64,000 nt of DNA, taken from contig OZ020587.1 of assembly GCA_963971535.1 (NCBI GenBank), positions 157,292,488 through 157,356,487 of the forward strand, in the 5' to 3' direction. A model generated the notes under the pieces. It had not been told where the DNA came from. It did not search any database and saw only the letters and a list, made by a program, of their open reading frames with translations. Positions 15,821-48,000 of this stretch are shown here, piece after piece. Numbering within the stretch: the first letter of the stretch is position 1; every line of letters begins with the position of its first letter. This stretch comes from Notolepis coatsorum (lineage: Eukaryota > Chordata > Actinopteri > Aulopiformes > Paralepididae). A program made the translations under genes and the position numbers.

Positions 15821-16140
15821 CTGTATGAGACTCACCTGTGCAGAGCAGAGCTGCCTGCACCTGAATATATGTGTCTCTGTCTAATTCCCTCTCTGTCTGC
15901 TTTCTCCACTCCCAGGCACAGGTTGTACCAACACCCAAGCTGCATCCTTTGACATATTGTAACACTGATACTTACACCAAACACACACCACAGCATACTT
16001 ACTCACTCATCCACACACTGCACTCACCACTGATTCTAATACAAAACATTCCATTGTTCATGTCCTTATGCTTTTGTTTGTTTAGATAGGTTTAAATAAA
16101 TCATTTTTTGTTAAATTGTGATCACGTGTGGACTCCCTAT
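15742..16140 (+). repeat. internal partial LTR copy
   Basis: 399 bp matching the element's own LTR from its first base to about 26 bp short of its end. It is preceded by AGGGGGAGG, the same 9-mer that precedes the 3' LTR (polypurine tract), and followed by three GATCCCTAT-like repeats. No target duplication surrounds it, so it is not a simple solo-LTR insertion. Confidence 0.85.
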
Positions 16141-17787
16141 GATCCCTATGATCCCTATGAACTCCGGACCATGTCGAAGGCTGATTTGGTTGCAGAACAG
16201 GTGAATGATCCAGCTTTAAGAGAGCTGTTTGAGAAAGCCGTACCATTTGAAGACATAGGTAGCTCGGCGCAGAGATACTGTCTTCATGACGGTTTATTGT
16301 ATCGGAAGTGGATACCGCATGGGGATGCTTTCGTGGGTGACCCCATTTTTCAGTTTGTGGTACCATGCGAATTTCGTCCATTGGTGTTGCAGACTTGTCA
16401 TAACAATGTGGCAGGGCATCAGGGAGTGAGGAAAACGTATGACCGTGCGCTGAGACACTGTTTTTGGCCCCGTTTAAAACGTGATATATCCGCATATATC
16501 AAAACGTGTCACACGTGTCAGTTAACTGGGAAGCCGAGTCAGACCATCACACCGGCCCTGCTCTCTCCTATTCCTGCTGTTGATCAGCCATTTGAACATT
16601 TGATTATTGACTGTGTTGGACCATTGCCGCGTTCCAAACAGGGACATTTGTATTTGCTTACGGTAATGTGTCAGGTGACCAGATACCCGGCAGCGTTTCC
16701 GCTTAGGTCGATAACGACAAAGTCTGTTGTTAAGGCGCTCACACAGTTCATTTCTGTGTTCGGGGTACCCAGGATCATTCAGAGTGATCAGGGTTCCAAT
16801 TTCACCTCACACATGTTTGCGGCAGTTCTCCAGCAACTGCACATCAGGCACAACAAAGCGTCAGCGTATCATGCCCAGTCTCAGGGAGCATTCGAGCGTT
16901 TTCATCAAACGCTGAAGTCGTTGCTGCGCTCCTATTGTGTGGAGTTAGGGGGTGACTGGGAGGAGGGGCTGCCCTGGCTTCTATTGGCCTCCAGGGAGGT
17001 AGTCCAGGAGAGCACGGGGTTTAGCCCTAATGACCTGGTTTTTGGTCACAAAGTCCGTGGTCCCATGGCTGTGTTGAAAGACAGCTGGGACATGGCAGAA
17101 CCCCCTCGGAAATTGGTTGATTATGTCAATGGTTTCAGGCGCAGGTTGTTTTTGTCTGTTGAGTGTGCGAAGGAGAAGTTGGGGAGGTCTCAGGGTAAAA
17201 TGAAATCCCTTTATGATCGTCGCACTGAGCTTAGGCAGTTTAAGGCTGGCGATCAAGTTTTGCTTTTACAGCCGGTAGTAACGTCTCCCTTTCAGGCAAA
17301 GTTCACAGGCCCTTACACTGTTGTGCGGCGGGTGTCTGACCTGAATTATGTTATTACCAAAGGCAGGAGGGCAAATAGGGTGTGTCATGTGAACCTTTTA
17401 AAACCCTACTACTCTGGCCATGCTGAAGGGGGGGTGAATGATGGGGAGAATAATGGGGAGACTGAGAAGGTTTCTCTTTGTACCACTACAGTGGACAGGT
17501 CCACCTCTCCAGTAGCCGGCCCTGAGGAAGGAGTAAACCCGGATGTGGTGTTGCAGGGGCGGTTGAAAAATTCAGAGTCATTGGGGAGGTTGGATGTGAT
17601 TTTGGCAGATTTGGATGACTCGAAGCGTGTTGAGTTAATAGCTCTGATTAACCGTTATCCTGCTTTATTTTCAGATGTACCCTCACGCACACATCTAATT
17701 GAACATGATGTGGACGTGGGAGAGGCAGCCCCAATAAAGCAGCGCTTCTATCGTCTCACCCGAGAAACGCAAGCATTTGGACAATGA
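16141..17787 (+). pseudogene. Gmr1-type integrase plus start of reverse transcriptase
   Basis: Open from within the internal LTR copy to 17787. It has an N-terminal zinc-binding region (HNNVAGHQG... then CHTCQ, about 16400-16520). The catalytic core has D in IIDCVGP (16600), D in QSDQGSNFTS (16783) and E in GAFERFHQ (16890). A C-terminal VCHVNLLKPYY block near 17380 is typical of Gypsy integrases. The same frame then encodes the RT N-terminus (LFSDVPSRTH..IKQRFYR) before a frameshift near 17770. This proves INT precedes RT in a single polyprotein. Confidence 0.85.
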
Positions 17788-19123
17788 GGTTCAGTATATG
17801 TTGGACAACCAAATTGCCGAATCATGTTCGTCAAGTTGGGCGTCGCCTTGCCTGTTGGTCGGTAAACCCGACGGAAGCTATAGACCATGTACTGACTTTC
17901 GTAAAGTGAATAACATTACCAAACCAGATGTGTTTCCTCTTCCCCGCATGGAAGACTGTGTAGATCAGGTGGGATCGGCTACTTACGTGAGTAAGTTTGA
18001 CCTTTTAAAAGGTTATTGGCAAGTCCCGCTGTCTAAGCGTGGCCAGGAGGTTTGCGCTTTTATCACTCCCTCTGGGTTGTACAAATATTTAGTCATGCCG
18101 TTTGGTCTTCGAAACGCCCCCGCTACTTTCCAGCGCCTTATGAACAAAGTAGTGGCTGGTCTGGATGGGTGTGCCGTCTACCTGGATGATGTGGTGATCT
18201 ACAGCGACACATGGTCTGAACACCTTCAGCGTATCCGGGCACTGTTAAAAAAATTGGTCTGGGCACGGTTGACTATTAACTTGGCCAAATGTGAATTTGC
18301 AAGAGCCACTGTCACCTATTTAGGAAAGGTGGTCGGTCAGGGCAGCGTACGCATGGTTCAGGATAAAGTTGTGGCTATTGTAAATTATTCCCCTCCAGCG
18401 ACAAAAAAGGATTTGATGCGTTTTCTGGGTTTAGTGGGCTATTATCAGAGTTTTTGTCGCAACTTCTCATCCGTAGTAGAGCCGTTGACTAACTTGTTGA
18501 GGAAGGACTCCAAGTATGTCTGGTCAGGCAGATGCCAAGTGGCCTTTGAAAATGTGAAGGCCCTATTGTGCTCTGAACCTGTGTTAACTGCTCCACGTTT
18601 AAATGACTCCTTTTCATTACAGGTGGATGCCTCCAACGTGGGGGCAGGGGCAGTCCTCCTGCAGGCGGATGTGCATGGGGTGGATAAATCGGTGGCCTTC
18701 TTCTCGAGGAAATTTAACACCTACCAACTTAACTACTCAGTTATCGAGAAGGAGGCGTTATCACTGATTTGGGCACTCCAACATTTTGACGTGTATCTGG
18801 GGTCAGGGGTGACTCCCCTGGTGGTGTACACGGATCATAATCCTTTGACCTTTTTAAAGTCCCTCCAAAATCCCAACCAGAGGTTGATGAGGTGGGCTTT
18901 GTTTTTACAGGCCTATTCTTTGGACATTCGTCACATTAAAGGGTCTCAGAATGTGATTGCGGACGCATTGTCCCGCCTAAGTTGGTCCCATGAGGATACC
19001 TTGTTTTGCCTCTCTCTATCTGTTCCCCAATCCCTACTGTCTCCTGCTCTCTTAAATAGCTTCTTAGGGCCCTATGTTGCTGAGAGTGGAGGCAGGATGG
19101 TGAGGGGAATGGGTGAAGGGTAA
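17777..19123 (+). pseudogene. Gmr1-type reverse transcriptase and RNase H
   Basis: About 448 codons in a different frame from integrase. RT blocks: DGSYRPCTDFRKVN, KFDLLKGYWQVPL, VMPFGLRNAPATFQ, and catalytic YLDD (about 18179). The Gypsy-type RNase H has LQVDASNVGAG (18622), EKEAL (18749) and YTDHNPL (18830). It ends at 19123, 130 bp before the polypurine tract. Full set of catalytic residues retained, but the single-base frameshift upstream disconnects it. Confidence 0.88.
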
Positions 19124-26769: not shown

Positions 26770-28851
26770 TCAGAGAGCAAAGAGGGAACGAAGCAGAGGG
26801 GACAGCGGGAGGAGGGGCCGGAGTAGAGAACAGGGGGAATGGGGCAGAGTGGACACTGGGAGGAGGGGCTGGAGCGGGGAACGGAGGGAATGGGGCAGAG
26901 GGGACAGCAGGGGGGGAGGGGGGCATACGGTGGGGTATACGGCCTGTACACGGGGCATACGGTCTGAGACATACGGGAGAGTGGCAGACTCAAAGGGACA
27001 TTGCATAGAATTAGGGAGATACACACGAGCATGCACAGAATCAGGGAGATTGCCATGGGCATCTAGTGCTCCTGGTGCAGGATACAGAGAAATGTAGCTC
27101 CCGCGATCGTCCTCCGCCAACCTCAGCGAGTGCCCATCCGGCTCGCCTTCTCCCTTTAACAGCGGAAAGAAGGAGGAATCCTTCTCCTTGGACAGTGCAG
27201 TAGTAATTAGCCGGTTGGTCAATGAATGGAGACAAGGGATGCAACAACATCCTACCAAGACAAGAACAGAACCGGCAACAGCGAGGGACATAAACATACT
27301 GACAAACATAGACTTGTACCGACCAAACCACCTCTCCATCGCTCCACCGAAAGGGTCTGCTGCACCACTGTTCCGCTTAAGCTCATGACTCAAGGTCGTT
27401 AAGCCTAACAAGGCCTTGGTCACTGAGCCGTCAGGACTGGTGTTGTTTGGGAGAAATGTGCAGCATAAGGCCCCGAACATGGAACAGACCCCGCCCCTCT
27501 CAGCCATTAACATGTCCAACGCCATCCTATTCTGGAGTGTCATGAGGCTGGTAGCGGAGAGCTGCTCCGCCACCCCCTCAAAAGCCTCCCTCGTGTAATT
27601 TATAAAACGCTGTTGATTATAAAATATGTACTGGATCCAATCTAAATTCTTATTAATTGTGGGCCAAACAAAAATAGACTCAAACCCTGCGAGCACTGTG
27701 TTCCGGGCCTTGAACTCGTCGGGGACCCCCCTTGGTACGCCTATGGAATCAAGATAAACGCCACTGTCAAAGGAGCCTTTAGGGGCCCTACGCCTGCTAC
27801 GGCGAGGGCTGGGGCGGAGCACCCTCCCCCCTGCCGCTGTGTTCTCTAATTCCTCAGCAGTATAGGGGATAGCATAAAAGGGCAAAACCAGCTGAACAGG
27901 GGCACATACACCTGACCATCTATCGGGGAGAATGGAGTAGAGTATGTCTGTACCGCAATACCACCAGACATCCGTCCTGGCATAGCGCGTCTTTGACAAG
28001 TCTCCTGTTGTACTCAGTGTGTTGACACTGTGTTGCGTGTCACATGTCTTTATCTCCCCCACTGCTCTGCCTCCTCTGTCCCTCCTGGTGATACACGTGT
28101 ACGCCCCCAGATAAGGAGTAAACGGGGGAGCAATGGGGGCCACTCCAACGGGGGGAAAGAGCTTAGTGAGTGCGGTGCAATTGGGTTTAACAGCTATTTT
28201 AGTGAGGAACATGTCCAGTAGACACATGAAACCCCCGGGGTCCTCCCGCATGCTCACAGGAAAGGGGACTGTGCCCAACGAGGGCCTGGCTGATGCACAG
28301 ATTACACATTCAGACACGTCGTTCAGTTTTGCAGTGAACAGCATCCATCTTAACCACATATTTGGCTCAGTATATCCTGTCTCTATGGCTATGGTGTCTT
28401 CTACCGAACCCATACGAACATATGTGACTTGTGGATGCTCAGTGGCTAATGGTCTGGGTCGGACTCCTTCTACTAGGGGGGGTGGGGTGTTCGGGGGCCC
28501 TATCACCAGTCTAAATGGTCCTGTGAAATCTGGATATCCCACACGCGGAATACCTACGACCAGATCAACGGCATCCCCCACCTGTGCATTTACGAGGGTG
28601 ATAACAATGGGGTTACATGAACCTACTTTACAGCTGGGTGGGGGTTGTCCGTTGATCACAGTCAGCCTGTCTTTAAGCGAGCGCCCAGACTCGTCTAATC
28701 TCATCTCTGGATCCTGCATGCGGCCATGGTCCCTGCTCCCCTTAGTGTCCCAAGCTGAGTCTGTGGGGGAACGGCACGGAAGAGCATGGGAAACACAGAT
28801 GCGTTTATTCAACTGGGAGTATTTAGCATGATTCCCCCTACAGCCAGCCAA
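26770..28851 (-). pseudogene. env: ERV envelope, SU/TM portion
   Basis: About 693 codons of retroviral envelope, the part downstream of the insertion at 28852. Surface subunit region includes a WWYCG motif and many cysteines. A furin-type RRSRRR site (about 27793-27812) marks SU/TM cleavage. The TM part has an LQNRMALD block followed by a C-x6-CC motif (about 27455-27495), the signature of gamma-type covalently linked envelopes. A membrane anchor ends with a CCCIPC cluster, and the proline/leucine-rich cytoplasmic tail is long. The 5' 84 codons lie at 36646-36897. Fish class I ERV Envs are the closest match I know. Function in a live virus: receptor binding and fusion. Broken here by the transposon. 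Confidence 0.88.
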
Positions 28852-30128
28852 TATGTGACTCCGCCCAGCGTGCGTGCCTACAACTCGGCGACCCAGGTTC
28901 CTCACGAGAAGAGAAAGAATTTTTTATTTTATTTTTTTTTTCATTTCCGTTTTTTTTATTTTTTATATATATATACTTACAGTTCGAGGGTTGAAGAACA
29001 TATTTAGTATAACAGCGAACATATATAATAACTCTAATTGTGTTTAAATTGTGTTTAAAAATGGCTCCTTGAGACATACTCTGATCGTCTCTCACGAAGC
29101 TGTGGGGGCAGTTCCCTCGGGCTGTCCCATTTTTGCATGTGAAAGGCTGCTGTTGATGTGAGGTACGCCCCCACACGGTGTGGTGTTTATATTCACAGCA
29201 CCTGTAGCAGAGAACACTTTTTTGCTGCTTAGATAACATCGACATGGCCGCACAAAAATTATCAGCTGCTCTTAATAGAGGAAGAGATGGAATGAGTATA
29301 GACTCCTCAGCGACGATGAGTGACCACATCACGGACTACATGGTCATCACTGAAGATGAGCCGCCACCAGCTCTTTTATCCGACGATGAGACCGAAGACG
29401 CAGATGAAGACGCAGATGAAATTGTACCAGATCCAATCGAACCTGCCGACGATGGTGAAACAGAGGAAGACGGAGACCTTTGCGTTGAAACTGTAGCATT
29501 GGGCTTTTCAGCTGAATCGACCATGCGATCAGTTGAAAAGATGTCTGGTTTAACGGTGGAGGGCGAAATAGAAGAGGAACTCGGAAAGATAAACTCTTTC
29601 CACTGCAAGTGCCAGGCGCGCCGAAAGGAAAATTCAGAACGATCTGCCCTGTCTTGTTCAAAAAAACTGTCGGTTGAGCTAATTTACCAAAACCGATTGG
29701 ACACCGCGTCGTTGACACCAAGAGAAAGGGACATGTGTCTGTTGTCCATTATTGGAACATGCCAAAATGTTTCAGAGATGACGCAAAGTACAAAGAAAGT
29801 CAACGCTATACGCCTGGCTTCAAGGACAACGTACAGATTCCACGACGTTGTCGTCTGTCGTCCAACGTTCTGTTTCATTTATGGGTAAGTGTTTTTATGC
29901 TTGTATATTGTATTGGACGTAGATGTATTGTATTGGACTTATATGTATGTTTAGCAATAGGTTTAAATAGGTTTAAATAGGTGTTAAAGTCTAGATATAG
30001 TCGTCGAATCCTATTCTACCCTGCGAGGGCGTCCATTTTGGATATTCTGGGTAGTGTAGTTTTTGTGCGGCCATTTTGTAATGCACATCGCTAGGATAGG
30101 GATTCTTAAAAACTACACCTGAATGTAA

Positions 30129-30300
30129 ACAAGAGTGATTGATTGATTGATTGATTGAAAAGTTTATTAACAGATTGCAGAATGGGTACAGTACAGTACA
30201 GCTCAATACATACAATTGTTAAGGGGATGCAGACCAGAGAAAGACTTCCATCTTGTTTACATCAGGGTCCCCCATTTTCAATTCATCATAACATAATATA
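30129..30300 (-). repeat. LINE 3' tail (family b) in intron 1
   Basis: GATTGATTGATTGATTG then AAAGTTTATTAACAGATTGC and GGGTACAGTACAG: the same 3' end as the LINE at 9266-10600, same orientation. 5'-truncated. Confidence 0.7.
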
Positions 30301-31047
30301 TGACATACAGATACAGTGTGTACAATGTGTGTATTTCATTCATTAATTCTCTTCCCTATTGTTAACATTTTTGTTTAGGATCAGCGATGCGCTTCTCAAA
30401 AGCCTTTTCAAACACTACAAGACAGATGGCCTCACACCGCGGGAGAGGAAGAAACAGCCGAGAAATCACAAGCGTTTTTTGTCTCTTTTTGACGTAAAAA
30501 GGGTTGTGAAATTTCTGATCAACTTTGCTGTCCTCCATGCGATTGTGTTGCCTGGCCGTCATGCTGGTCACAAGGATTTCACTGCAAAGTTACTGCCAAC
30601 CAATCTGACCAAAGCTGCCCTGTGGCGCCTTTACAGCGGTATAGAAGGTATGTCATAAAACCACCCCTTTCTTTCTCTCTCACACACACACATGGTTCCC
30701 ACTTTTTCTTATTCTACCAATCTAACAAAAACACTTGTCTTTTCAGGATTTCGTGTTGTTGGTCAGAGATCCTTCCTTCGGTTGTGGAAAGCACTCCTTC
30801 CGCAGATAATGATCACAAAACCCAGGACAGATCTGTGTTCTCAATGTTACTCCAACAATAACCAATTACAGCAAGCCGCGGGAAGGCCAGAGAAGTTGCA
30901 GGTGGAGAAACTCCAGGTGTGTACAGTCTACTTTCACTACTACACTACAGACTGTTTTTTACCACCATCTATTCCCCTGTACCCCCGTCCATAGTGGCTT
31001 GTTTACAGTATTTACCCAAACATAGCAACGTCCGATGACGACATAGA

Positions 31048-31370
31048 ATGGGTACAATACAGTACAGCTCAATACAACAACAGTGGACTGGAGGATGAAG
31101 ACCAGAAAAAGGCTTTCGCCTTTTTTACATAAGGGTCCTCCATTTTCAATTCATCAAAACATTTAGAGACATACAAATATACAGTAGTTTCATAAAAATG
31201 CTAAAATGCTATTGATTGATTGATTGATTTAAAACTTTATTAACATATTGCAGAATGGGTACAGTACAGCTCAATACATACAATTGTTAAGGGGATGCAG
31301 ACCAGAGAAAGACTTTCGTCTTGTTTACATCAGGGTCCCCCATTTTCAATTAATCATATTTCATATCTAA
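31048..31370 (-). repeat. two LINE 3' tails (family b) in intron 3
   Basis: 31048-31165 is a degenerate copy lacking the GATT start. 31204-31360 begins GATTGATTGATTGATT and includes AACTTTATTAACATATTGC. A short + strand copy sits at 31714-31770 just upstream of exon 4. Confidence 0.65.
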
Positions 31371-31537
31371 ATCATATAATATCTCATTGCTAAATATATG
31401 CAATATATAATCTAATAATCCAATAATCTAAATCTAATATATAATATAAAAATGCTAAATGCATGGGTATTTTATTTTGTCTTTAATGTTAGCTTGCAAA
31501 CTCGAATACTGTCTTGGTAAGCCTCATAATGAATTGT

Positions 31538-31637
31538 TTGGGGAAAAAAAGAAAAACATCGTGATGTGTATCGTGTATCGCCGAAAGGTCAGAAAATATC
31601 GTGATATCATATTTAGGCCATATCGCCCAGCCCTAGC
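31538..31637. mobile_element. hAT-type MITE remnant (TIR of the 621-1037 family)
   Basis: Ends GGCCATATCGCCCAGCCCTA, the complement of the 621-640 terminus. Upstream sequence has ATCGTGAT motifs typical of these MITEs. The other end is missing. Confidence 0.55.
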
Positions 31638-32694
31638 TTCAACACACATGACATTAGGATAACCTGAGGATAACTGAGCACTGCCACCTCATTAGCCGTG
31701 TGTGTGTGTGTGTGTATTGAGCCGTACTGTGTTGTACCCATTCTGCAATCTGTTAAATAACGTTTTCTTTCATTCATGCTTTCATCCAGGTGCAGTTAAA
31801 ACATCTGGCCCTTGTTGACAGAGAACGCGAGCTGTTGCAGGAGATGACTGTCGCCACAAAGCGCACATGCGCCGAGAACATGGATCTGTCGCTAGGCCCC
31901 TCCCCACCTGCAAGCAGAGATATCACGATGCACTACAGCTTTGATTACGCACAGCAGGTGAATATCCAATATAATGTTGCTTTTTGTTGTTAAAGGAAAA
32001 CTTACAGGAACGTTTGAGTTGTATTTGGAGTGTATTTAGATAAGATGAGAGTGGGAGGAGAGAGGAGAGAGAAAATAGGAGAAGAGAGGAGAGAATAGGA
32101 AAAGAGAGGAGAATTTTTTATGTAAAAATAGTTCCTTATAGTTTTAGCAGTATTTTTTCATGAATCACTCGCCAAACATAAAAAATACTTGCATTTGGCT
32201 AGTAAAGTGGCCTAATTTCCTCCCCTGTTCCCTTATTTCAATGTCCCTTATTTCAATGTCCTTTTTTCTTTTTCTTCTTTCTCTGTCCTGCAGGTTCATT
32301 TTCCATCTCACCCTTTTCAAGTGGGTCCCATCTTTTTTCAAACACCGCGCAAATGTGGCCTGTTCGGTGTCCACTGTGAAGGGCTGACGAAGCAAGTGAA
32401 TTACCTAATTGATGAAGGGATGTCAACTGGTAAAGGCAGCAATGCCGTTATCAGCTATGTGGATCATTTCTTCACCAACTATGGAGTTGGAGAAAAATCA
32501 GTGGACCTGCACTGCGACAATTGCTCCGGGCAAAATAAAAACAATTATGTCTTGTGGTATTTTGCGTGGCGTACTATTCACAAACTTCACCTGCAGCTTG
32601 CTCTCCACTTCCTAATTGCAGGCCACACTAAATTTGGCCCCGACTGGTGCTTTGGTTTGATAAAGCAGGTTTACAGGAAGACTGCGGTCGACAC

Positions 32695-33172
32695 CAGTGA
32701 TGCCACAGATTACTTGTAAAAGTAATCCGATTACTGATTACTGATTACTCCTTTAAAAAGTAATCCAAGTTACTTTACTGATTACTTGATTATCAGAGTA
32801 ACTTAGTTACTTTGAAAGTAACTAGGTTACGAAGTCGTCGTTCCCCCAACAGTTTTTTTTAAACGCTTTATTGAAAGTGCATAAATTGTTTTTAACTTGT
32901 TTCTCTGCACATAACGTAAATTGTTAAACTAGTGCTTCAGCTTCTGTACCATCAAGTATGGTAAAGCAACAGTCTATGATGCTCACAGCATTAGAGCAGC
33001 CAGCCAGTGGTTTTACAAAACCAGTGTATCCATTCACATCTAACAAATGCAGGCTGAACTATTCAATTATATCAACTGTAACTATTAAATTGTTTTTATA
33101 AATGTCTCTCTATAAACATACAAGCAGTCTCTCTTTAACATGTAAATTAACTGTAAATCTGGCAAATAAGAG

Positions 33173-33214
<42 letters not shown>

Positions 33215-33235
33215 CTCTCTCTCTCTCTCTCTCTC

Positions 33236-33270
<35 letters not shown>

Positions 33271-33315
33271 CATGCCTCTTTCTCTCCAACCCCACCCAGA
33301 CAGCCTACATCTCTA

Positions 33316-33358
<43 letters not shown>

Positions 33359-33439
33359 TATAATTATTATTATTATAATATAATCCCTTCTCTCCCTCTC
33401 TGTGTGTATGTGTGTGCGCGTGTGTGCGTGTGCTTGTGC

Positions 33440-33482
<43 letters not shown>

Positions 33483-34166
33483 TCTCTCCCCTCTCTCTGT
33501 CACTCGTGTTCTCCCACCTGAAGAACTGTGGGAGAGCATTAGAGCAGCCAGCCAGTGGTTTTACAAAACCAGTGTATCCATTCACATCTAACAAATGCAG
33601 GCTGAACTATTCAATTATATCAACTGTAACTATTAAATTGTTTTTATAAATGTCTCTCTAGTCTTCTTGCGGTTTCACTTCGTTTAGACAAGCGTTTTGG
33701 GGTGGAATTCTCAGACGAATGCAACGGTGCCCTGCTGTCAGACGATTGGCGCATATGTCACATGACGTGCTGTGAAGACCCGCCCTACTCTGCCTCTGAT
33801 TCGCAGACTGTGGATGGGGAATGTGATTGGGCCAAAGCAGAGTCACTCACAGACAGAGAGTCCAGTCACGCCGCGAGGACACATTCTTGTGTAACCCTTT
33901 CACTGCCACACCACGTCACTCCCAAATAAGAAAAACAGCTCAAAAATGTATTTTTGACTGTCGAAAACGAAATAAAATACTGCATTCCGCATGCATTATG
34001 AATTTATGATGAGATAGTAACGAAATAGTAATGCACAGCCACTTGGACAAGTAACTGCAATCAGATTACTGGCTTTTAAAGATTAACGCGTTAGATTACT
34101 ATTTTCGGGGGAAAGTAATCAGATTACAATAACGCGTTACTTAGTAACGCGTTACCGGCATCACTG
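32695..34166. mobile_element. hAT-type MITE, 1472 bp, inserted in exon 5
   Basis: Begins CAGTGATGCC and ends GGCATCACTG. Both sides carry the 8-bp duplication GTCGACAC (32687-32694 and 34167-34174). Sub-terminal GTAACGCGTTAC motifs are typical of a common fish hAT family. It has grown by an internal 125-bp direct repeat (32987-33111 and 33537-33661) enclosing (CT)n 33178-33266, (AAT)n 33318-33380 and (GT)n 33405-33480. No transposase. Confidence 0.92.
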
Positions 34167-34613
34167 GTCGACACCCTGGCAGGCATCGCAGACATCGTCA
34201 GGAAAAGCTCTGCAGTGAAAGGAGTCAATATCCCCCAACTTGTCGGTCGCGAAGATGGCACAGTTTATGTTCCAAGCCACGACTGGCAGCAACATCTCGG
34301 AGGCTTCTTCAAAAGATTCCCACAAATAAAGAAATACCAGCACTTCAGCTTCGATGCCAACAGTCCTGGCATGGTGACGGCGAAATTACACTGTGACGAT
34401 ACAGAGCCATTCACGTTTCAGCTGTTGAAAGACCCAAAACGCTACCCAACCATCTCTGGTTTTCCTGTCCTCACCCCACCTGGTCTAGACAATGACCGAC
34501 AGGAATATCTTTATAAGGAGATAAGACAATACTGTTCTGATGACGCAAAAGACATTACATGCCCACTCCCAACATCTAGAGCACCTCAGAACAAGAAGAC
34601 TGTACGATGTTAG

Positions 34614-34627
34614 ACACATGGATGTAG

Positions 34628-34662
<35 letters not shown>

Positions 34663-36640
34663 TACTAGCAGTCACTTTAACATGAACACACACACACACT
34701 CATGCTGCACACGCTCACAATGTAAGGTCACTTTAAAAAAATTAAACAAGAACAGGAGTGGTTCTTGTAGAGTAAAAGCTTATTACTTGTTCTTATTACT
34801 TGTATTATTGCACAATGTCGCATTCTCATCCTATTGGAATCTTATTATTGCATTCTTGACTTGACTTGATAGTATAGTAGTACTAGTATAGCATAGGGAC
34901 ATAGAAGAATTGTATTGTTGTACCGGTACATCATACATGTACATTATATTTTTATTACTATTGTTTTATTGCACAATCGTAGCGGGCATGGCCAACCGCA
35001 TTTCACTGTATGCCCTGGTATGCAATGAATAAAAAAAAATGTCACTTTAAACTAAATGGAAAGGTCACTTTAAAGGAAAGAACCGATGTGGTTCTTGTAT
35101 AGTTTAGATTATTGTAGTATAGCATAATGACAGCATGTCTATTTTTATCATGCACATCTTATGCCTTCTTATTACCTGTTTATGTATTTTATTATTAGTA
35201 TTATTGCACAATCGATGCGGGCATGACCACCCGCATTTCACTGTATGCCCTGGTATGATATGCAATGAATAAAAAAAAATGTCACTTTAAACTAAATGGA
35301 AAGGTCACTTTAAAGGAAAGAACCGATGTGGTTCTTGTATAGTTTAGATTATTGTAGTATAGCATAATGACAGAGTTGAAACTGTATTAGCATGTCTATT
35401 TTTATCATGCACATCTTATGCCTTCTTATTACCTGTTTATGTATTTTATTATTAGTATTATTGCACAATCGATGCGGGCATGACCACCCGCATTTCACTG
35501 TATGCCCTGGTATGATATGCAATGAATAAAAAAAAATGTCACTTTAAACTAAATGGAAAGGTCACTTTAAAGGAAAGAACCGATGTGGTTCTTGTATAGT
35601 TTAGATTATTGTAGTATAGCATAATGACAGAGTTGAAACTGTATTAGCATGTCTATTTTTATCATGCACATCTTATGCCTTCTTATTACCTGTTTATGTA
35701 TTTTATTATTAGTATTATTGCACAATCGATGCGGGCATGACCACCCGCATTTCACTGTATGCCCTGGTATGTATGTGACTAATAAACCTCTTGAATTGAT
35801 TTGATATTGTCTGCTGATTTTCATCCAGTTGTCACATGAAAGGTTGGAACAATGATAATGATAATGATAATAATGAGGCTTGTGTCTATCACTCCGCTGG
35901 CCAGTTCTACCAACTATGCATTACAATTCCCTGCGGTCAACATAATTTCTTCCTATTTTGGTTGTAATTGTGTAATGATAGATGTATAACCTGAACACTG
36001 TACATATCTGTTTTCAGGAAACACTGGGCTATACAAAGAATATGCTGTGATGTCACATGAATGTATAAATATATGGCCATGCATTTAATCTCTCTCTTTT
36101 TTATAAAATCATTATAGCCAACATGCAATATATCCCATTGATTGGTACACTGGGACAGACATTTGTTTTATACAGCTATAACCTGCATTCTTTCAAAATA
36201 TATCATTAATCAATAAAACAGATATTGGAATACATAAATAAAGGTTTTCAATTCAATAACTGAAATATACATTATTCAGACTAGTAGTTATATTACTACT
36301 ACAATAGAAAATGTTTGATTTTGTATCTGATCTGTCAGCATGGCTGTCACAGCACTTAATTATGTTAATACTATTCAGGGGAGAGGTGTGGCTGGGAGGT
36401 ATTGTTTACGCCCAGCAGAATCCTGGCAAAAGGTGTCAAATCTTTAAGAGCTGTTTTCTCTGCTTAGGTCTCTGGGGAAAAAAGACTGCTACAAGATTTA
36501 AAATTAGCACATCACAATAATAACATTCTCAGATTTCAAAGTATGACACATCATTTGAAAGCTTACATTCTGTACTTTCACAATCTGGAAAAATCTGGAA
36601 AATGAAAAAATAGACATGTAGGCTATAGCACTGGTCGGGG
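34614..36640. other. 3' flank of the DUF7869-like gene inside the TA-flanked unit
   Basis: Contains a CA repeat (34630-34660), the 240-257-bp tandem repeats listed next, and AT-rich sequence to the right terminus. No second gene is recognised. Confidence 0.6.
35027..35790. repeat. three tandem copies of a 240-257-bp LINE-tail-like unit
   Basis: Units begin at about 35027, 35267 and 35524 with AATAAAAAAAAATGTCACTT and each contain CCCGCATTTCACTGTATGCC. The first lacks 17 bp (AGTTGAAACTGTATTAG) present in the others. The last ends GTATGTGACTAATAAACC, like a LINE 3' terminus. A partial unit precedes at 34970-35026. Confidence 0.88.
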
Positions 36641-36645
36641 TCACA

Positions 36646-36897
36646 TATACAAGCGTCAATCAACACTGTTGCTGTCTTCCCTTCCTCAAACCTGACGTCC
36701 ATAATGTATCTGGCCCTTCTAACCCCGCGTCTCTGGGCGTAGTCACGGGAAGCGGGTTCTTTGATAGTCTGCTGCACTGCACGGGGGTTGGATGAGAAAC
36801 AATAGCAGAACAGACCAAGGGTAAAAACTAACAGACATCCTAACACCAGACTGATCCTAAGACATGTGAATTTTTCATTTTTAGACGCCATTTCCAT
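36646..36897 (-). pseudogene. env: ERV envelope, N-terminal portion
   Basis: ATG at 36897, with a second ATG two codons later. 84 codons up to the TA insertion point. A hydrophobic stretch at about residues 14-35 fits a signal peptide/anchor. An R-rich segment (AQRRGVRRARY) near 54-64 may be a leader cleavage site. In frame with 26770-28851. The start overlaps the end of the small upstream ORF by 17 bases. Confidence 0.8.
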
Positions 36898-37162
36898 TTT
36901 TTAGGAGGTATCTTACTCCGTAACAAAGTACAGCAAGTAGCAAGGAAAACACTGTGATTGCCAGACTACCCACCACTACCCTACTCAGTTTTACAGAGAT
37001 ATGGCGTACTCCAGTAACGTTTACAACTGCGTTCTGGTGTTGTATTTGGTGAGAAGAAGGGGATGTTATATTAAGGATGTCGTCAAGCGTGTTTTGTCCT
37101 ATATCAGACAGAATGTCATCAGATATTGCTGATTCTAATAGATCAGGTAGCCAGATTCTCAT
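36881..37162 (-). CDS. small membrane-protein ORF between ERV pol and env
   Basis: 93 codons from ATG at 37162, overlapping the last 20 bases of pol and the first 17 of env in a different frame. The N-terminal half is acidic ([16 protein letters not shown]). NIT and NVT are potential N-glycosylation sites. A 23-residue hydrophobic segment ([20 protein letters not shown]) lies near the C-terminus, followed by a short basic tail. I do not recognise it. It could be an accessory protein or an alternative envelope leader reached by splicing. The intact frame amid damage elsewhere is suggestive, but the length is short. Confidence 0.5.
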
Positions 37163-39702
37163 TACTCTCTTGTTCCAGCACGGCCAAATTGTGTCTAACC
37201 TCTCCAAGTTTACGAGAGGGTTCCTGTGCAGGTACACAATGTGTGAGGTGGTGCCAATTAGCTCCTGTTTTACTTTTTACCTTCAGAGCGTGCGAGGTAG
37301 CTTCCACTACCAGGGCAGGCTCTTTCCACCTAGGGTCAGTCCACTTTCTTTTGTGCACTTTGACCCTTACCCAGTCACCAGGTTTAACAGGAGTCTGTTC
37401 CGGTGTCTCCTCGGCTGGCTCTGCGTTCTGGATCTGTGAAGACAAGACTCGAGTGATTTTAGTGAGAGCCCTAATATAATCTTCCACCTCAATGTCCCAT
37501 ATGTTCAACGCTGGACCAACACCCCCCTCTCTGGGTGGGCCTGGCATTGGTCCACCTGTCATTAGTTCATGGGGAGAAAGGTGAGTTCTCCCACTCTGGG
37601 AAGATCTCATGGACATCAGCGCAAGGGGAAGTGCATCCACCCACTTCATCTTAGTCCCATGACAGGCCTTGGCAATTTTCCTCTTCAAAGTTTGGTTTGC
37701 TCGTTCTACAAGGCCCTGCGAGGCCGGATGATAAACTGCACCGAATTTGTGTCCTATGCCTAGCTGCTTTTCCACTATTGCCAGTTTGTGACTGGTAAAG
37801 TGCGACCCATTGTCACTCCGGACCAATGTCGGGAGCCCGTGACGGGGGACAAGCTCATTTCTTAGCCACTTAACAACTGTGGCCGCATCCTCTTTCCTAC
37901 AGGGGATGGCTTCTACCCATCGGGTGAACCTGTCCACCGCAACCAAAATGTACCTATATCCACGTACAACATTCTCAGCTCCCATATCTGTGAAGTCTAT
38001 GCAGATTTCTTTAAAAGGCGCATCTGGGACAGGGAACCTACCCATAGGACACTTGTAGGTCCTCTTTACATTAAAGGCGTTGCAGGTGTGGCAGTCTGCA
38101 ATGAAGTTCTCCACTATCTCTTTGAAATATGGATGCCACCAATGCGTCTCTGCCTCTTTAGTAGTTCTCAGTCTGCCCACATGGGTGGGGCCATGTGCCT
38201 GCTTTATGATCAGTTGACACAGTTTAGCTGGCGCCACTAGGCGGCCATCATGTGCTCTCCAAATCCCATCAACACATGTAGCTCCCTTCCTCAGCCACTG
38301 GTTCTGTTCATATGGACCAGCCTGTCGCTGCAGCTCCCTGATTGATTCCTCTGTCAACTCCAGCTCCTCCGCCTCACGTAAACACATCATCTGACCTTTG
38401 TACCCTGCCACAAATTTTGCCGCCTTATCTGCTGCATCATTCCCCTTGGCAATAAATGTGTCTGAACTCTGATGACCCTTACACTTCATGACCCCCACCT
38501 CCAGGGGAAGGAGGACTGCTGCCAAAAGATCCCTAAGTGCTTTTGCATGTTTTATTGGTGTGCCTTGAGAGGTAATAAACCCCCGCCTAATCCATTGTGG
38601 GCCATCCACGTGCACAGCCATGTGGCCGTACGCAGAGTCAGTGAAGATGTTTGCCCTCTGACCCCGTGCCAGTTCCAATGCTCTTGTCAATGCTATTATT
38701 TCAGCCAGTTGAGCAGACGCTGGCTGAGGAATGATGGCAGACTCTATAGTCATATTTCTAGAGTCTCTCTGTTCTACCACGGCATAAGAAGCAATATTCC
38801 CATTCTCACCCCTGTAGCAGCACCCATCACAAAAGAGAACCATATCTGGCTCTGGTATCGGTTCCTCCCGCAGATCTGACCTGATCTTTAAGTCACGCTC
38901 CGCTATGTAGCTGCAGTCATGTGGCTCATGATCATCAGAGGCTAATCCCGAAACCATGTTAGCTTTTCCGGTCTCGTAGCTAATGTGTGGCTGTGTGAGG
39001 GACTCTGAAATCCTGATCTTTCTGACAGGTGAGAATGCAAAAGCTTTAGAGCTCAAAAATGCAACTACACCGTGTGATGTGTTCACCTTCAGAGCGTGAC
39101 ACATGACTACATGAGCTGTCTTTTCAATAGCTCTGGCCAGTGCAGCCAGGTGCCTGGCGCATCCCGTCTGACCCAGCTCTATGTTGTCGAGCTTCGAGCT
39201 GTGGTATGTCATCACCCTCCTCTCTCCCCTTTGTTTCTGATACAAGACACCATTCACTACCCCCCCTACTTCAGAAACATCAAGGTAGAATGGTTGTGTA
39301 TAGTCTGGTGTGCACAAATGCGCAGCTTGTGCCAGCGCCTGCTTGGTCTGAGTGAAGGCCTCTTCGCCCTCCCTTGTCCATTCCAGTTTTGCTGTGAGGT
39401 TTCTATTCCCTGCTTCAGCAATCATGTCTCTGAGTGGTTGAGTTAGAGTAACATAGTCTGGCACGTAAGTCCTACTGTACCCAGTGAGGCCCAGGAAGGC
39501 CAACATCTGTTGTACTGTCCTCGGTTTACCGTGTGAGAGTATAGATGTTCTCTGTGACGAAGTCAACGACAGGCTGTTAGCTGAGATGAGTCGCCCTAAG
39601 AAGGTGACAGTCTTTCTCGCTATTTGTGTCTTTTCTCGCTTCACTTTGTATCCTACCTCGGCGAGTAGTGTCAGTAGGTCAGTGGTGGCTCTTAAACTAA
39701 AC
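37143..39702 (-). pseudogene. pol: ERV pol: RT C-terminal part, RNase H, integrase
   Basis: Open for about 850 codons. RT thumb/connection ([15 protein letters not shown], like gamma-type Pol). RNase H has D in [10 protein letters not shown] in [13 protein letters not shown] in FTDSAYGH and D in [10 protein letters not shown]. Integrase has a zinc region H..H..CHTC (about 38070-38190), D in CIDFTDMG, D in [11 protein letters not shown] and E in [10 protein letters not shown], and a C-terminal PGDWVRVK barrel. It ends at 37143. It is out of frame by one base with the upstream protease-RT segment, the break falling directly after the YVDD motif. Confidence 0.88.
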
Positions 39703-41292
39703 TTAAGCCAGGATTAAATCGTCTACATACATGATCAAATTGACCCCTTCAGGAAGCTGTAAGGTGTCCAGGTCCCTCTTTAGGGCCTGATTGAATAGCC
39801 CAGGGCTGTCCTTATAGCCCTGTGGTAGCCTGTTATAGGTGAGTTGACTGCCACCATAGGTAAAGGCAAACATATCTTGTACTTTTGGGTCGAGGGGTAA
39901 GCAGAAAAATGCATTTGCTAGATCAATGACTGTGAAGTGGGTGTGTGTTGGATTGATGTTCTGTAGTGCCACATATGGGTCAGGCACAGGAATGTTTTCT
40001 GTCATGGTTGCGTTGTTGACCTCTCTTAAGTCATGGACCATTCTCCACCCCCTGTCCCCTGCCTTGGGTACTGGTAGGATAGGTGTGTTCCATGGGGATG
40101 TGGTGTATCTTAAAACCCCGACCTCCAGGAGCCCCTCGATAGTGTCTTTTATTCCAACAATCTGTTCAGGCTTAAGGCGGTACTGCGGCCGCCAACAGGG
40201 ATACTGGTCAGGCTTAAGGGTAACTGATACTCCTCTGTGTGTCACACAACCCACATCGAATGGCCCCGTAGTCCACAGTTTGGACGGCACAGCACGCAGC
40301 CATGTCTCAGTGTCTGGGTGATCTGTGTGTTCTCGTCCATGGTCACGTTCCAATTCTTGTACCTCCAACAAGCCCTTATCTGTGCCTCTGTGGAGGATTT
40401 TCCACATGTTGTTTACGGGGTTTGTGAAGACCTTGGGGAATGCAGTGGGCACCCACTCACAGGTGAGGGCCTCTTTCATCATAAAGCCCAGGGACCTAGC
40501 TTCATACCCTACTGCAATCGCCAAGGTGACATGGGGTGTGGCGTCTGCGTCTAGAGTGTACCATGTTTGCTGTTCTGGGGTCAGATGTGAATACGCAGCG
40601 ACCCCTTGGGGACCCACAATAATGTCAGATGTCTGTATTGTCTCAGTGTGGCCTTCTTTGTCTTGCTCCCAGGCCTGTTGATACTCCTCATCAGTCCTCC
40701 TAAGATAGTTGTATGTCGAGTGCAGTGGATCAGACGGGGGCCTATACGCCCCTAGGGTATTTATCCACGGTTTCCACATCATATAATGTCTCTGTATTTC
40801 TGGCGTGTCAACCTCAGTAGTAAGCAGCCTACTCCAATAGACCTGAGTGATTTCCTGTTGGGTGTCAATTGCTCCTAACATTAATATCCTTTGTCCATAG
40901 CGGCGAGTGATGAGAGTGTCGTCATGACTTCCCGGGAGTCGCAAAATGATACCATCAGAAGTACAGAAAATGACAGCCCCTATCTTAACTAGGAGGTCTC
41001 TGCCCATTAGATTGACTGGGCACTGTGGCGCGTGGAGGAATGAGTGATTTAGGGTTTGACTGCCTATTTGTGTGACCAATGGGGTAGTATATTTCTGTAC
41101 ATCTGCTTTACCCGAAAATCCAACCGTTCTGAGAGTATGAGAGGACAGCGGTGGGACTTTACCTCTGAGACTGTTAAGGACAGAAACTGTAGCCCCCGTA
41201 TCCACCATTAGTTGGATGTCCTCTCCCTCAATTAGACAGGTGACCATTGGTTCATGAAGTGTGTCACCCGTGGCTGGACCCTCTGGGCCTCT
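39703..41292 (-). CDS. pol: ERV protease and reverse transcriptase (fingers/palm)
   Basis: In the same frame as gag, directly after its UGA stop. Protease has [11 protein letters not shown] (about 41200) and [10 protein letters not shown] begins near 40270, with [48 protein letters not shown] and catalytic YVDDLIL at 39716-39736. It terminates a few codons after YVDD; the remaining RT is in the next frame. Gamma-type gene order. Expressed presumably only by read-through of the gag stop. Confidence 0.85.
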
Positions 41293-43632
41293 TCATTGTT
41301 GGTCATTACCCCATGCAGCCATAGGCAACTGCGCAGCATTGGGTGGCATTGGACCATACTGTGGTTGTGTGTACTGGGGCGGAACTTGTTGCTGACCAGG
41401 GTATGCAGGAGGAGTCCAGTAGGGGGAAGGTGGCTGTCCTGCCTGGATGTTCGGCGGACCCATGTTTGATTGATAGCGTAAACCCCCTCTTCCTCTGGGG
41501 CCAAAAGGTCTCTGGTTTCCCCTGGTGGTTCCCCGTTGGTTGTGACCCCAACAGTTCCGGGCCCAATGACCCCGCATTCCACAGAGATAGCAGGCATCAT
41601 CCCGCTGCTGCTGCCCGCCCCTCCCCTGTCTGGGCACGCCCCCCCCCCCATACATTGGATATTGCATGGGGTTGGGCCATTGTTGTTGTTCCATCACATT
41701 TCCACCAGGCGCAACTGCCATCTCTGCCTCTTGAGGCTCTTGTTTCAAGGCGGACCCCAATAGCATCTGTCTCCTCTCTTTCTTCCCTTGATTTCGCTCA
41801 CTGTCCTTCTCCGCAACTTGAAACTTTAATAGTCTCTTAGCCAGATTCTTCATCTCTTCCTCACTCTCCCCTTGTGCCCTCTGGTTTCTAATGTCATAAT
41901 GTATGAGAAATGCCCTCCATTCCTCATCAGTTTTCGTGTCCAACCCCACGATATCGTCCAATTTGATACGGACCGGTTCTGGGAGAGCTTTAACTACGGC
42001 ACTCCTCCACACCATTACTGTGGCCTCTGTTTCGTCATACCTCTCCCCTGTACACTCCAACCAAACGTCCTCACACCGTTTAAGAAAGGTGTGAATGTCC
42101 TCATTTGATTCCTTTTTTAGGCTGGCTAGTGCAGTGAGTGTCCGATTAGTAGGATAACGGTCCCTTACTGCTGCCCAATAGCGTGGTCTATGTAGATTGA
42201 AGTCCTCCTGGTCTTGATGCATATTGCATTGAGCGAGCAGATCGGTCTGCCTAGCAGGCAATCGCCCCTCTATTCTTCCCATCAACGCCCGGAGGTCACC
42301 TAAGCACAGGCGATCTCCTGCTGTGTATCTTTCAAGTTCCATTACCCACTTTTGACCACCCTTGGTTAAGGGGGGCAATTTGGCCACTAGGGAGTCCATG
42401 TCTCTGTGACTCCATGGCTGATAATAGGGCTGCCCTCCAGGGCTAGCAATCAGTGGGCATTGAGTGGAGAATTTCCCATCCCCCCTTTCTCCCCCCTGGT
42501 CTCTGCCACTCGTGGTTGGTGCAAGGGAGTCATAACCTTGATGCTGGATCAGCATTTCTCCTCCGCTAATGTCGTATGACCCCCCCTTCGTTTCACCCCC
42601 TCTCGCCTGCATCTTCAGTCTTCCCTTTATCACACTGATCTTTTCCACTTCTCTCGTCTCATGGTGCTCCTCTTCTTGCCTGCTAATCCCCATAACAGGG
42701 CTGTAGCCCGTCCTTCTGTTCAGCAGACATTCTGCCTCCCCTGGTTCACTTTCCTCATCTAGAGACACTCCGCTACCGCACGCTGTGCCCTGTTTATCTT
42801 TAACCCAGGGTAAAGTTGTGTCGGGTGAGGACCCCCCTTGTCCGGTTCTGTCATGGCGGTTGCCGAGGCCTGTTAACAGGTGTGGGGCATTACGTGTAAT
42901 CCTGTCAACCTGTTCAACTAATTGTGTCAGTGTACGGTCATTCTCCGTCTCAGCCACCTCTAGGACCCCCGAGGTGATGCGTATCACTGGGGCCTGAAGG
43001 GCCTGAATCATCTCCAGACCAGCAGTGGTTCTGTGCGGTGCGTACGCGGGGGGATTTGTGCCATACAGTTCGGAGGCCTGTGCTGCTGCCGGGGTAGGAG
43101 GGAGGCCAGGATAGAGAAAGGGGGTCAAAGAGCCGGTCTCCAAAGATAAGTCAATTAGTGGAAGTATCGGAGCTCGTTCCACTGTGAGTACTTTATGAAT
43201 GGTGGAATTGGCCCGGGCCTGTGTATTGAGTCGGTCCAGCTCATCTATGTCCTTAAACACAGGGCCCACTGCCGTTTGAGTAGGTATTGCGTATTTGAAG
43301 TGGAGTAAGAGAGAGGAGACTCTTGTCATACGCCGCTCAGCTTTGTCCAGAGCGGCTTTAGCCTGCCCGATTCTGTGTCTCCCCGCTTTTTCCCATTCTA
43401 TGGTTTTGACAGTCAATTCCCCTTTCTCATAGTCCAGTATTTCTTGTCTATGTGTCCTCGTAAGGGCAAGTTCGTCATCTTTTGGAAGTAAATTTCTTAT
43501 TTGCCAGGAAGATATCAATTTGTCCATTCGTTTCTTAACCTTCTTCCTATTTTGAGGCTCAGTTGTCGCATCAAGCCTCAAATTCACCTTTTCTATAACC
43601 TGGCCCGTCGTTTGTTGCTCTATATCAGTCAT
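41293..43632 (-). CDS. gag: ERV Gag polyprotein
   Basis: 779 codons from ATG 43632 to UGA 41293-41295. The N-terminal 150 residues are basic and helical, and the middle is proline-rich. The capsid-like region spans about 400-640 (LRALMGRIEGRLPARQTDLL, ASLKKESNEDIHTFLKRCEDVW). One CCHC zinc knuckle CYLCGMRGHWARNC lies near residues 678-691, followed by an R/G- and P/Q-rich tail. A single knuckle and an in-frame stop before protease are gamma-type traits. Intact. BEL insertion 49 bp upstream of the ATG separates it from its leader and promoter. Confidence 0.88.
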   Translation of the reverse strand: MTDIEQQTTGQVIEKVNLRLDATTEPQNRKKVKKRMDKLISSWQIRNLLPKDDELALTRTHRQEILDYEKGELTVKTIEWEKAGRHRIGQAKAALDKAERRMTRVSSLLLHFKYAIPTQTAVGPVFKDIDELDRLNTQARANSTIHKVLTVERAPILPLIDLSLETGSLTPFLYPGLPPTPAAAQASELYGTNPPAYAPHRTTAGLEMIQALQAPVIRITSGVLEVAETENDRTLTQLVEQVDRITRNAPHLLTGLGNRHDRTGQGGSSPDTTLPWVKDKQGTACGSGVSLDEESEPGEAECLLNRRTGYSPVMGISRQEEEHHETREVEKISVIKGRLKMQARGGETKGGSYDISGGEMLIQHQGYDSLAPTTSGRDQGGERGDGKFSTQCPLIASPGGQPYYQPWSHRDMDSLVAKLPPLTKGGQKWVMELERYTAGDRLCLGDLRALMGRIEGRLPARQTDLLAQCNMHQDQEDFNLHRPRYWAAVRDRYPTNRTLTALASLKKESNEDIHTFLKRCEDVWLECTGERYDETEATVMVWRSAVVKALPEPVRIKLDDIVGLDTKTDEEWRAFLIHYDIRNQRAQGESEEEMKNLAKRLLKFQVAEKDSERNQGKKERRQMLLGSALKQEPQEAEMAVAPGGNVMEQQQWPNPMQYPMYGGGGVPRQGRGGQQQRDDACYLCGMRGHWARNCWGHNQRGTTRGNQRPFGPRGRGGLRYQSNMGPPNIQAGQPPSPYWTPPAYPGQQQVPPQYTQPQYGPMPPNAAQLPMAAWGNDQQ

Positions 43633-45046: not shown

Positions 45047-45095
45047 GGGTAACTAGTGTAATATTAATATAGTGGTATTAATATTGACATGGCCT

Positions 45096-48000
45096 ATGAT
45101 GAACACTCCACAAAACGGTTCTCCTAAAGTAGATCGCCCGCAGCGTAGACGGCAGACACCTCAGTACTTAGAGGATTACGTTGCCAATATACTACCTAGC
45201 TTTCTACAGACGGTAAACGCGGAAAAAGTAGATAGTAAAATTATGTCCGACCCTATCGACCAGGCTACCCCGCCAATAGAGGCCCTAGTGGGTTCTAACG
45301 TAACTGACCAAGCTCACGGTAGGGACCAGGAGGGACCCGACATGACTTTACCCCCCGCCAAGACCGAAGAAGTAGTCCCCGGAGAGCTCCAGGATAAAGA
45401 CAGCTCTCCAGGGATGGAACTCTACCCGCTACAAGAAGAGGAGAGCACCCCGGAGACGGATCTCCAGGACTCGCCACAGGAGAACAGATCTCCAACGAGT
45501 ACTGCCAGGAGCGGATCACCTCAACCAGCGTCTTCCCCCAGCGAGGCGGACAAGATGCTGGCACAGGCATTCCTCGCCAGCCTAGCAGCCTCAACAGAGC
45601 GCGATCGACTCCAAGCACAGACGCTTAGTGAGCGCGAACATTCTTCCATGGAAAGAGAACGCCTTCAAGCGCAGCAACGGAGCGACGAAGATCGTATACG
45701 TCTAGAGATTAGACGCCTTCAGACGGAAGAGAATATGGTAAGGGACCGGGCCGAAGCCCAGCGCGCCACCGCCGAAGCCCAGCGCGCCGCCGCCGAAGCC
45801 CAGCACGCCGCTGCCGGTGCCCAAAGAGAAGCAGAGCGCGACCTCGCTCTCACCAAGCGCGAAGCCGAGCGCGACCGATTACAAGCGCGGATAATGGAGC
45901 AGCTGATCACCAGGGCAACACCCCCTCCCTCCGCACAGGGTTCCAGGGCCTCGTCAAGACAAGGGTCAAGGGCACCCTCCCCTACCCGATCAAGCGACCC
46001 TGAGCCCGACCACCAGAGAGAGCCTATACCCCCCTCCGAACCCCTTCCCCGACCAGTCCAAGTGAGACCCAGCTACAAGGAAGAAACGGTCTACACCGCG
46101 GAGAGGCTAAATAGACGACTACAGGATCTAGAGGACCTGCCAGAGGAAGAAGAAGAGGGAGAGGAGGAGAGTCAAGCCCGACAGCAGCACAGTACTCCAC
46201 AGGACCAGGAGGTCCAGTACAGCCCAGGCTCTACCCCCGCGGCTTTGCGCTACAGACCCCCGACTCAATTCACGGGTGAGCTTGACGCACGACCAGCCCC
46301 GAGGAATAGCACCTGGATACGCGGGCCATGGTACCCAGCAGGTACCAGCCCACCAAGAGGCGTAAGAGGAGACTCGCCTAGGAGGCCTCTCTTCCAACGC
46401 TCACCGATGTGCCAGCCATCCATGGCATCATACATTGGCACACCGACGTTTCCGGACTTCACCCACGAGAACAGAGCACAGTACACGGAGCTACGAATGT
46501 GCTTAGAGACAATGATGTCCGATGTAGCTGATGAACCGTACAAGTATGCTATCCTACTGAAGCACCTCAAGGTGCCCCGAGCGCACAATATAGTGCTGGC
46601 CTATGCCACCTCTACTACCCCATACATAGCGGCTCTAGCAGCACTCGACCAAAGATATGGACGCATATGGGACTACGTAATACAAGAGATAAGGCATATT
46701 GACCGCCTACCCCCAGCCACAGACAATCGCTCACTAGATGACCTGTCTATCAAGGTACAATCCCTGGTAGGGATGCTGGGGGCGCAAAGAGAAAAGGGTA
46801 TGCACGAACTGTACGCGAACTCTAATGTCGAGAGGATTTTAGAGAAGCTTCCGCCCGCCCGACAAGAGCGCTTCAGGCGGCAAAGAGACCACCGTGATCC
46901 TAACGGTCCCGAGCCATCCCTCCTAGACCTAGCCGACTTCCTGGCGAGAGAAGTCAACAGCCTACGGTTGGATACGTTCATGCGGAGCACCCCAAGCTCC
47001 AGAGAGGGACCTAGGAGAGCAAACGATGGCCGAAGATTGGTGGCCGTCATGCACCAATCAGAATCAGTACCGAGCAGCAAGAACCACAGTACCCCCTCGA
47101 TGAAAGAGAGGTGGAAGATGGTGTGCCCGTACTGCGAAAAGGAACACTGGTTGTCACAATGTGACACATTCAAGAAGATGACCGCCGACGAGGTGAGTCA
47201 ATGGATAAAGTCCAACCGACGCTGTTACCGATGTGCGCGCAGTCACATGGCAGCCGATTGCCGCTTAAAGAAGAGGTGTAGTCGGTGTGACGGAGCCCAC
47301 CTAGATGTCCTACACGACAGTAACAGAAGAAAGCCTGCACCCTCAAGCAGCACAAAGGCAAGTGTTATGTACATTGACCCCGCCAGCAGCGGGGGCGCCC
47401 GGGTGCTCTTAAAGGTGGTCCGCGTAACACTGAGTTACCAAGATAAGGTCATGGACACTTACGCCGTCCTTGACGACGGGTCAGAGAAGACCCTTCTCCT
47501 CGCGTCCGCTGCGGCCCAGCTGGGGCTGCGGGGGAGCGAAAACCAGATGACGATTCGGACAATAAGAAGAGATCTAAAGACAATAAAGGGCGAGAATGTC
47601 TCCTTCACTATCGCAGCAAGCGGGCAGCCAGAGAGACGGTATAGGATTACTAACGCTTTCACCAGCCAAGAAATAGGCCTGTCGCAGTACACCTACCCCA
47701 TCGCCAAGCTGATGGATAAATATGTGCACCTGCGTCAACTACCTATACCGCTCATAGACGGTGCCACCCCGACCCTGCTGATAGGCTCCGACCATGCAGA
47801 CCTCATTGTCCCGATAGACCGGGTCCACACAGGGCCCAGAGGCTGTCCTGCAGCAGTCGAGACCCGCCTAGGATGGACATTACAAGGCCCCCTCGCTAAG
47901 TCTCTTAACCGAACAGCAGCCACTAACTGCCTCCACTCCAGAGTGACAGAAGAAGACACCACCCTCCTACAGCATGTCGAGAGGCTATGGACACTAGAGA

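Follow-up and report, generated by a model that had tools for sequence, protein, structure and literature searches.

A TA-duplicating DNA transposon of the fish Notolepis coatsorum, probably moved by its own DUF7869 protein

Background

What interrupts the env gene of an endogenous retrovirus (ERV) in the genome of Notolepis coatsorum, and what moved it there? The ERV lies on the minus strand of a 64,000-nucleotide stretch of contig OZ020587.1, referred to here as the window, and its env open reading frame (ORF) is broken by a segment that carries a five-exon gene. A preliminary description, made from the letters alone, proposed that the segment is a DNA transposon of an undescribed type and that its DUF7869-like gene encodes the transposase. 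The reading favoured here, with a probability of roughly 0.84, is that the segment is a DNA transposon which duplicates a 2-bp TA (sometimes TT or AA) and is likely moved by its own DUF7869 protein, a predicted DDD transposase of the RNase H fold. The features are listed in Table 1.

Table 1. Features of the element and of its insertion site, in window positions
Feature	Position	Strand	Remarks
Left target duplication TA	28852-28853		All 19 sibling ERV copies read have a single TA at this site
DNA transposon with terminal inverted ends	28854-36645		Inside env of the ERV
Left inverted end TGTGACTCCGCCCAGCG	28854-28870		93 exact matches genome-wide, 78 preceded by TA
Exon 1, acidic stretch and Cys-rich N-terminal part	29244-29884	+	Cys conserved in the alignment of relatives
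Exon 2	30379-30647	+	
Exon 3, with invariant CxxC	30747-30916	+	
Exon 4, first predicted catalytic Asp	31790-31957	+	Asp codon 31943-31945, in HYSFDYAQQ
Exon 5, first part (DUF7869), second and third predicted catalytic Asp	32294-32694	+	Asp codons 32516-32518 and 32642-32644
8-bp duplication of the MITE, GTCGACAC	32687-32694 and 34167-34174		
hAT-like MITE inside exon 5	32695-34166		1,472 bp; CAGTGATGCC ends
Exon 5, second part and stop codon	34167-34614	+	First 8 bases are the MITE duplication
Tandem repeat, 257-bp unit, 2.5 copies	35132-35775		Downstream of the gene
Right inverted end CACTGGTCGGGGTCACA	36629-36645		119 exact occurrences with [ACT][AT] flank
Right target duplication TA	36646-36647		

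Ends of the element and host site

The two 17-bp ends, TGTGACTCCGCCCAGCG and TGTGACCCCGACCAGTG, match at 14 of 17 positions (pattern TGTGAC...GTCACA) and adjoin TA on both sides, just as the preliminary description had placed them at 28854-36645. By themselves they are only suggestive: when the two 1-kb stretches were resampled 100 times, one version produced a TA-flanked pair of equal quality. A chance origin is ruled out by the other copies and the empty sites described below, and it is these, not the 14 matching positions alone, that settle the reality of the element. The earlier claim that env coding keeps the same frame on both sides is upheld by phase arithmetic, the pieces not being joined as sequence: the upstream piece leaves phase 1, and codon position 1 of the downstream ORF is base 28853.

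Copies, target duplication and empty sites

The genome contains dozens of near-identical copies of this mobile DNA transposon. When the left 257 bp were used as a query against the 3.42-Gb assembly, all 40 candidates scored, from 744 at first look, were at least 97% identical to it; with the right 245 bp, all 40 scored from 1,460 candidates in the same assembly were identical to the query. The exact left 17-mer occurs 93 times and the exact right 17-mer, with an [ACT][AT] flank, 119 times, and their reversed-sequence controls do not occur. The many copies with the same ends that the preliminary description anticipated are therefore present in this genome.

Left and right ends were paired by place and strand, with the left flank scored as TA or not TA and the right pattern admitting only [ACT][AT]. 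On this basis 66 copies, including that of the window, could be paired: 55 are TA/TA, six combine a non-TA left flank with TT on the right and five with AA, and none is discordant. Of the left ends, 27 of 93 are unpaired, and four of those are non-TA. The TA target duplication proposed earlier thus stands for most pairs; in the 11 others the right flank is TT or AA. Paired copies span 0.5 to 16 kb, full copies cluster near 6.4 kb, and internally deleted copies are also present in the genome. At 20 distinct two-ended sites that were read, again with the window included, the flanks are TA/TA in 17 and TT/TT in two; the sole discordant site is L057, which is TA/TT. L047 and L053, which have common flanks, were counted once.

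Two other readings of the duplication were rejected. A register shifted by one base, giving AT, fails on the TT/TT copies L009 and L051, which fit only the TA/TT register. In a 3-bp duplication the left ATA disagrees with the right TAT.

The preliminary description had also looked to empty sites, and natural ones were found. A piece of the right flank of the ERV occurs at 22 places in the genome, among them that of the window. In 19 of the 21 others, which make up the sample, the 111-bp junction piece continues unbroken through ...CCAGCCAATATACA with a single TA (19 of 19), and some pieces show one or two single-base differences nearby. The filled site in the window reads ...CCAATA, element, TATACA, and comparison with the empty site gives an exact 2-bp duplication. 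The element appears to have moved recently in this genome.

The gene and a later insertion

The preliminary description counted a single five-exon gene of 695 codons. The exons, with GT/AG borders, do add up to this number, but only with a 1,472-bp hAT-like insert removed. The earlier account left this MITE out, and none of the 14 other copies with the two exon 5 parts carries it. The gene of the window copy is interrupted by this second, later insertion, and the copy is longer than ~6.4 kb because the MITE splits exon 5.

The gene was also found between the shared ends in other copies, as had been expected, and 12 of the 18 other two-ended copies examined have all exons. In eight of these 12 a single frame is open over 694-696 codons and all introns have GT/AG borders; the other four are broken. 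The pooled dN/dS among the eight open copies is 0.51; because the changes are few and non-independent, and several close pairs are near or above 1, selection on the gene within this genome has weak support at most. A better argument for selection comes from conservation across animals.

Protein family and predicted fold

The first part of exon 5 matches PF25273 (DUF7869) with 40.4 bits against a Pfam cutoff of 26, in agreement with the DUF7869-like gene reported earlier, and PF25273 is matched by all 50 relatives at E <= 0.1 (Pfam). Both motifs that had been pointed out, Asp-Asn-Cys-x-Gly-Gln-Asn-Lys and Gly-His-Thr-x5-Asp, are present. Such proteins had been placed in fish genomes; the relatives exist, but they come from about nine animal phyla and not from fish alone.

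Structure prediction gives the C-terminal half as an RNase H-fold core with an Asp-78-Asp-41-Asp triad, consistent with the fold and three acidic residues that the preliminary description had foreseen. In the predicted models the acids lie at the end of strand 1, after strand 4 and on a late helix; the first is conserved in 49 of 50 relatives, and the second and third each in 50 of 50. Retroviral integrases and mariner Mos1 account for all 50 structural matches listed for the modelled domain. Among the fold matches listed there are no transposases beyond integrases, Mos1, Sleeping Beauty and IstA, an absence that carries no weight against other families. Foldseek searches of PDB and BFVD returned nothing at E <= 0.001, a PDB sequence search gave no match at E <= 10, and viral contigs yielded 36 pattern matches and no relatives.

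Two further assignments were discarded. NCBIfam ISNCY_2 is matched by five of 50 relatives (best 7e-5), and the one match located (P0220, 104-155) is in the N-terminal part, outside the catalytic core. A '302-aa' subfamily proved to be the same family, represented by a copy (L080) truncated on the left.

The closest working analogy for the mechanism is mariner. The Cys-rich N-terminal part of DUF7869 may bind the TGTGAC ends, and the DDD core would excise the element and, as in mariner, would join its ends to TA two bases apart. Repair would then leave the 2-bp duplication.

Related lineages in the same genome

A second group of DUF7869 genes (B, the group of the window element being A) was found in the same genome with a Pagothenia relative as the query. 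In one B copy (L081) the ends TGTGACGTGCTCTCAC and TGTGACTTGCTCTTAC ranked first in a motif-free scan for TA-flanked inverted ends, and in a second (L082) similarity stops exactly at the same end, adjoining TA. The B ends differ from those of A, yet also start TGTGAC at TA. There are 90 exact matches to the B right end flanked by [ACT][AT]; among the 33 with letters shown, 32 have TA and one has AT. The B exons are 36-54% identical to those of A, depending on the exon, and the position of the last intron is the same. In a 31-protein tree the two lineages are in separate groups, and A has mollusc and priapulid proteins as closer kin than B, at a fork of moderate support (88/90).

Each of the two gene lineages lies beside its own ends. 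A gene and a right end share a strand and lie no more than 3.5 kb apart at 34 of 65 A places, 35 of 47 B places and five of five B-like places, a count that omits one partial B place (C6:114340857); opposite-strand pairs and crossed A-B pairs are both zero. No exact right end among those listed (100 of 119 for A) lies within 3.5 kb of 31 of the 65 A genes and 12 of the 47 B genes. For a third lineage, C, no recognisable end is seen in the 2.5 kb read downstream of one copy, and neither L083 nor L084 yielded one.

These pairings bear on a different explanation, in which some other TA-targeting transposase, for instance that of a mariner, acts on the element in trans and DUF7869 is a passenger gene in two lineages by coincidence. 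The TA duplication is indeed that of Tc1/mariner, and the link between protein and movement is one of co-occurrence only. However, two lineages this divergent each combine the gene with their own ends sharing TGTGAC at TA, the gene has a predicted DDD integrase-like core, and exon 1 and an antisense ORF running out of the left end are the only ORFs of at least 150 aa listed in the element. This explanation seems very improbable. The earlier proposal that DUF7869 proteins are transposases of a TA-targeting family gains support from the copies, the TA duplications, the empty sites, the position of the gene inside the ends and the predicted RNase H fold, and transposase activity of DUF7869 is the interpretation retained here.

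Comparison with known superfamilies

The element might belong to a named superfamily, most likely as an outlying branch of Zator/ISAzo13 or Tc1/mariner, with DUF7869 a strongly diverged transposase of the same. With Tc1/mariner it has the TA duplication in common (TA/TA in 55 of 66 pairs here, the rest with TT or AA at the right), and the predicted DUF7869 core resembles Mos1 and Sleeping Beauty in fold. A DD41D family (VS) is placed within Tc1/mariner in passages of PMC8533490. The element differs from Tc1/mariner in its five-exon, 695-codon gene, its 6.4-kb length and its TGTGAC ends, and the 15 Pfam families to which one or more of the 50 relatives match include no Tc1/mariner model (E <= 0.1; HMMER filters may miss very weak matches). 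The ISAzo13 DDE domain (PF07592) is matched weakly over the catalytic region by seven of 50 relatives (best E 9.4e-5, 22 bits), but its cutoff of 26.9 bits is reached by none of the located matches (six of the seven relatives); the NCBIfam ISAzo13 model is matched by one of 50, at 0.032, also under the curated cutoff. Zator and ISAzo13 make 3-bp duplications according to passages of PMC10045372, whereas that of the element is 2 bp in both empty sites and paired copies. Membership of a named superfamily is thus judged unlikely.

The 2-bp duplication length is also common to ISL2EU and PHISTA (PHIS) and to ESTA (CMCT), and TA duplications of 2 bp are given for PHISTA and ESTA in part of PMC12730594. 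ISL2EU duplicates AT, at A|AT|T (PMC4482050, in part), in contrast to the TA, TT or AA found here. The CMCT group (EnSpm, Mirage, Chapaev, Transib and ESTA) is characterised in part of PMC12730594 by C(2)C and H(3-4)H between the second and last acid; each occurs in one of 50 DUF7869 relatives. No PHIS or CMCT Pfam family is among the matches of the 50 relatives. For hAT, P, MuDR, Kolobok and Dada, passages of PMC10045372 give C/DxxH between the second and last acid, a motif seen in five of 50 relatives. Retroviral integrase-like DDE/D enzymes resemble the predicted models in the RNase H fold and in three acids at the expected places; unlike a retrovirus, the element has no reverse transcriptase or LTR, the structural match has 12% identity, and the duplication is 2 bp.

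Tc1/mariner, Zator/ISAzo13, CMCT, the C/DxxH group and ISL2EU each fail at least one feature tested. DUF7869 may constitute a separate superfamily that neighbours the IS630-Tc1-mariner/ISAzo13 enzymes. On balance we lean towards DUF7869 as the transposase of an unnamed animal superfamily characterised by TGTGAC ends, a TA duplication and a DD41D core; it would be ancient, spread over about nine phyla, and moving now or very recently in a vertebrate.

No paper with 'DUF7869' or such an element was found in the literature searched, and the label 'undescribed' in the preliminary description holds for those papers, Repbase and Dfam lying outside that search. The high vertebrate copy number and wide animal spread make an earlier entry plausible, and it is conceivable, if rather doubtful, that this real element is already catalogued in one of the two under some name.

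Conclusions

A large family listed only as a 'domain of unknown function' gains a concrete and testable role. Hundreds of 'uncharacterized proteins' from fish, molluscs, echinoderms, corals and other animals could be read as transposases or their descendants, and the set of TA-targeting transposases would widen. The near-identical copies with open genes would make it possible to try out a new transposase directly in a vertebrate element, as reportedly happened with Sleeping Beauty and Tol2.

Other features of the window

The endogenous retrovirus that hosts the DUF7869 element carries ORFs that resemble gag, pol and env. A similarity search of the same genome with 253 bp of this retrovirus's env matched 22 places at 83–100% identity. 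Within exon 5, the last exon of the DUF7869 gene, lies a hAT-like MITE, for which other copies of the DUF7869 element supply the empty site. A tandem repeat follows the gene directly, and one with a different sequence is also found downstream of the gene at L083, a copy of lineage C (the third DUF7869 gene lineage of this genome). In the genome, the copies L012, L013, L014 and L018, on four contigs, share a single insertion with identical near flanks, as if they were haplotigs or recent segmental copies.

To the left of the element, an integrase-like ORF (16108-17787) is followed by a reverse transcriptase ORF (17777-19123), both read by eye from the ORF list; integrase ahead of reverse transcriptase is the ORF order of Gmr1-like elements. 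The ORF at 1039-1560 contains a stretch of undetermined residues, corresponding to masked or unknown bases. The long frame at 45072-51323 looks like a BEL/Pao retrotransposon polyprotein.

Additional features of the window
Feature	Position	Strand	Basis
Retrotransposon ORFs	13954-19123		By eye, ORF list
Endogenous retrovirus	26770-43632	minus	By eye, ORF list
hAT-like MITE	32695-34166		Own internal repeats, 8-bp duplication
Tandem repeat, 257 bp	35132-35775		
Uninterrupted frame, 2,083 codons	45072-51323		By eye, ORF list
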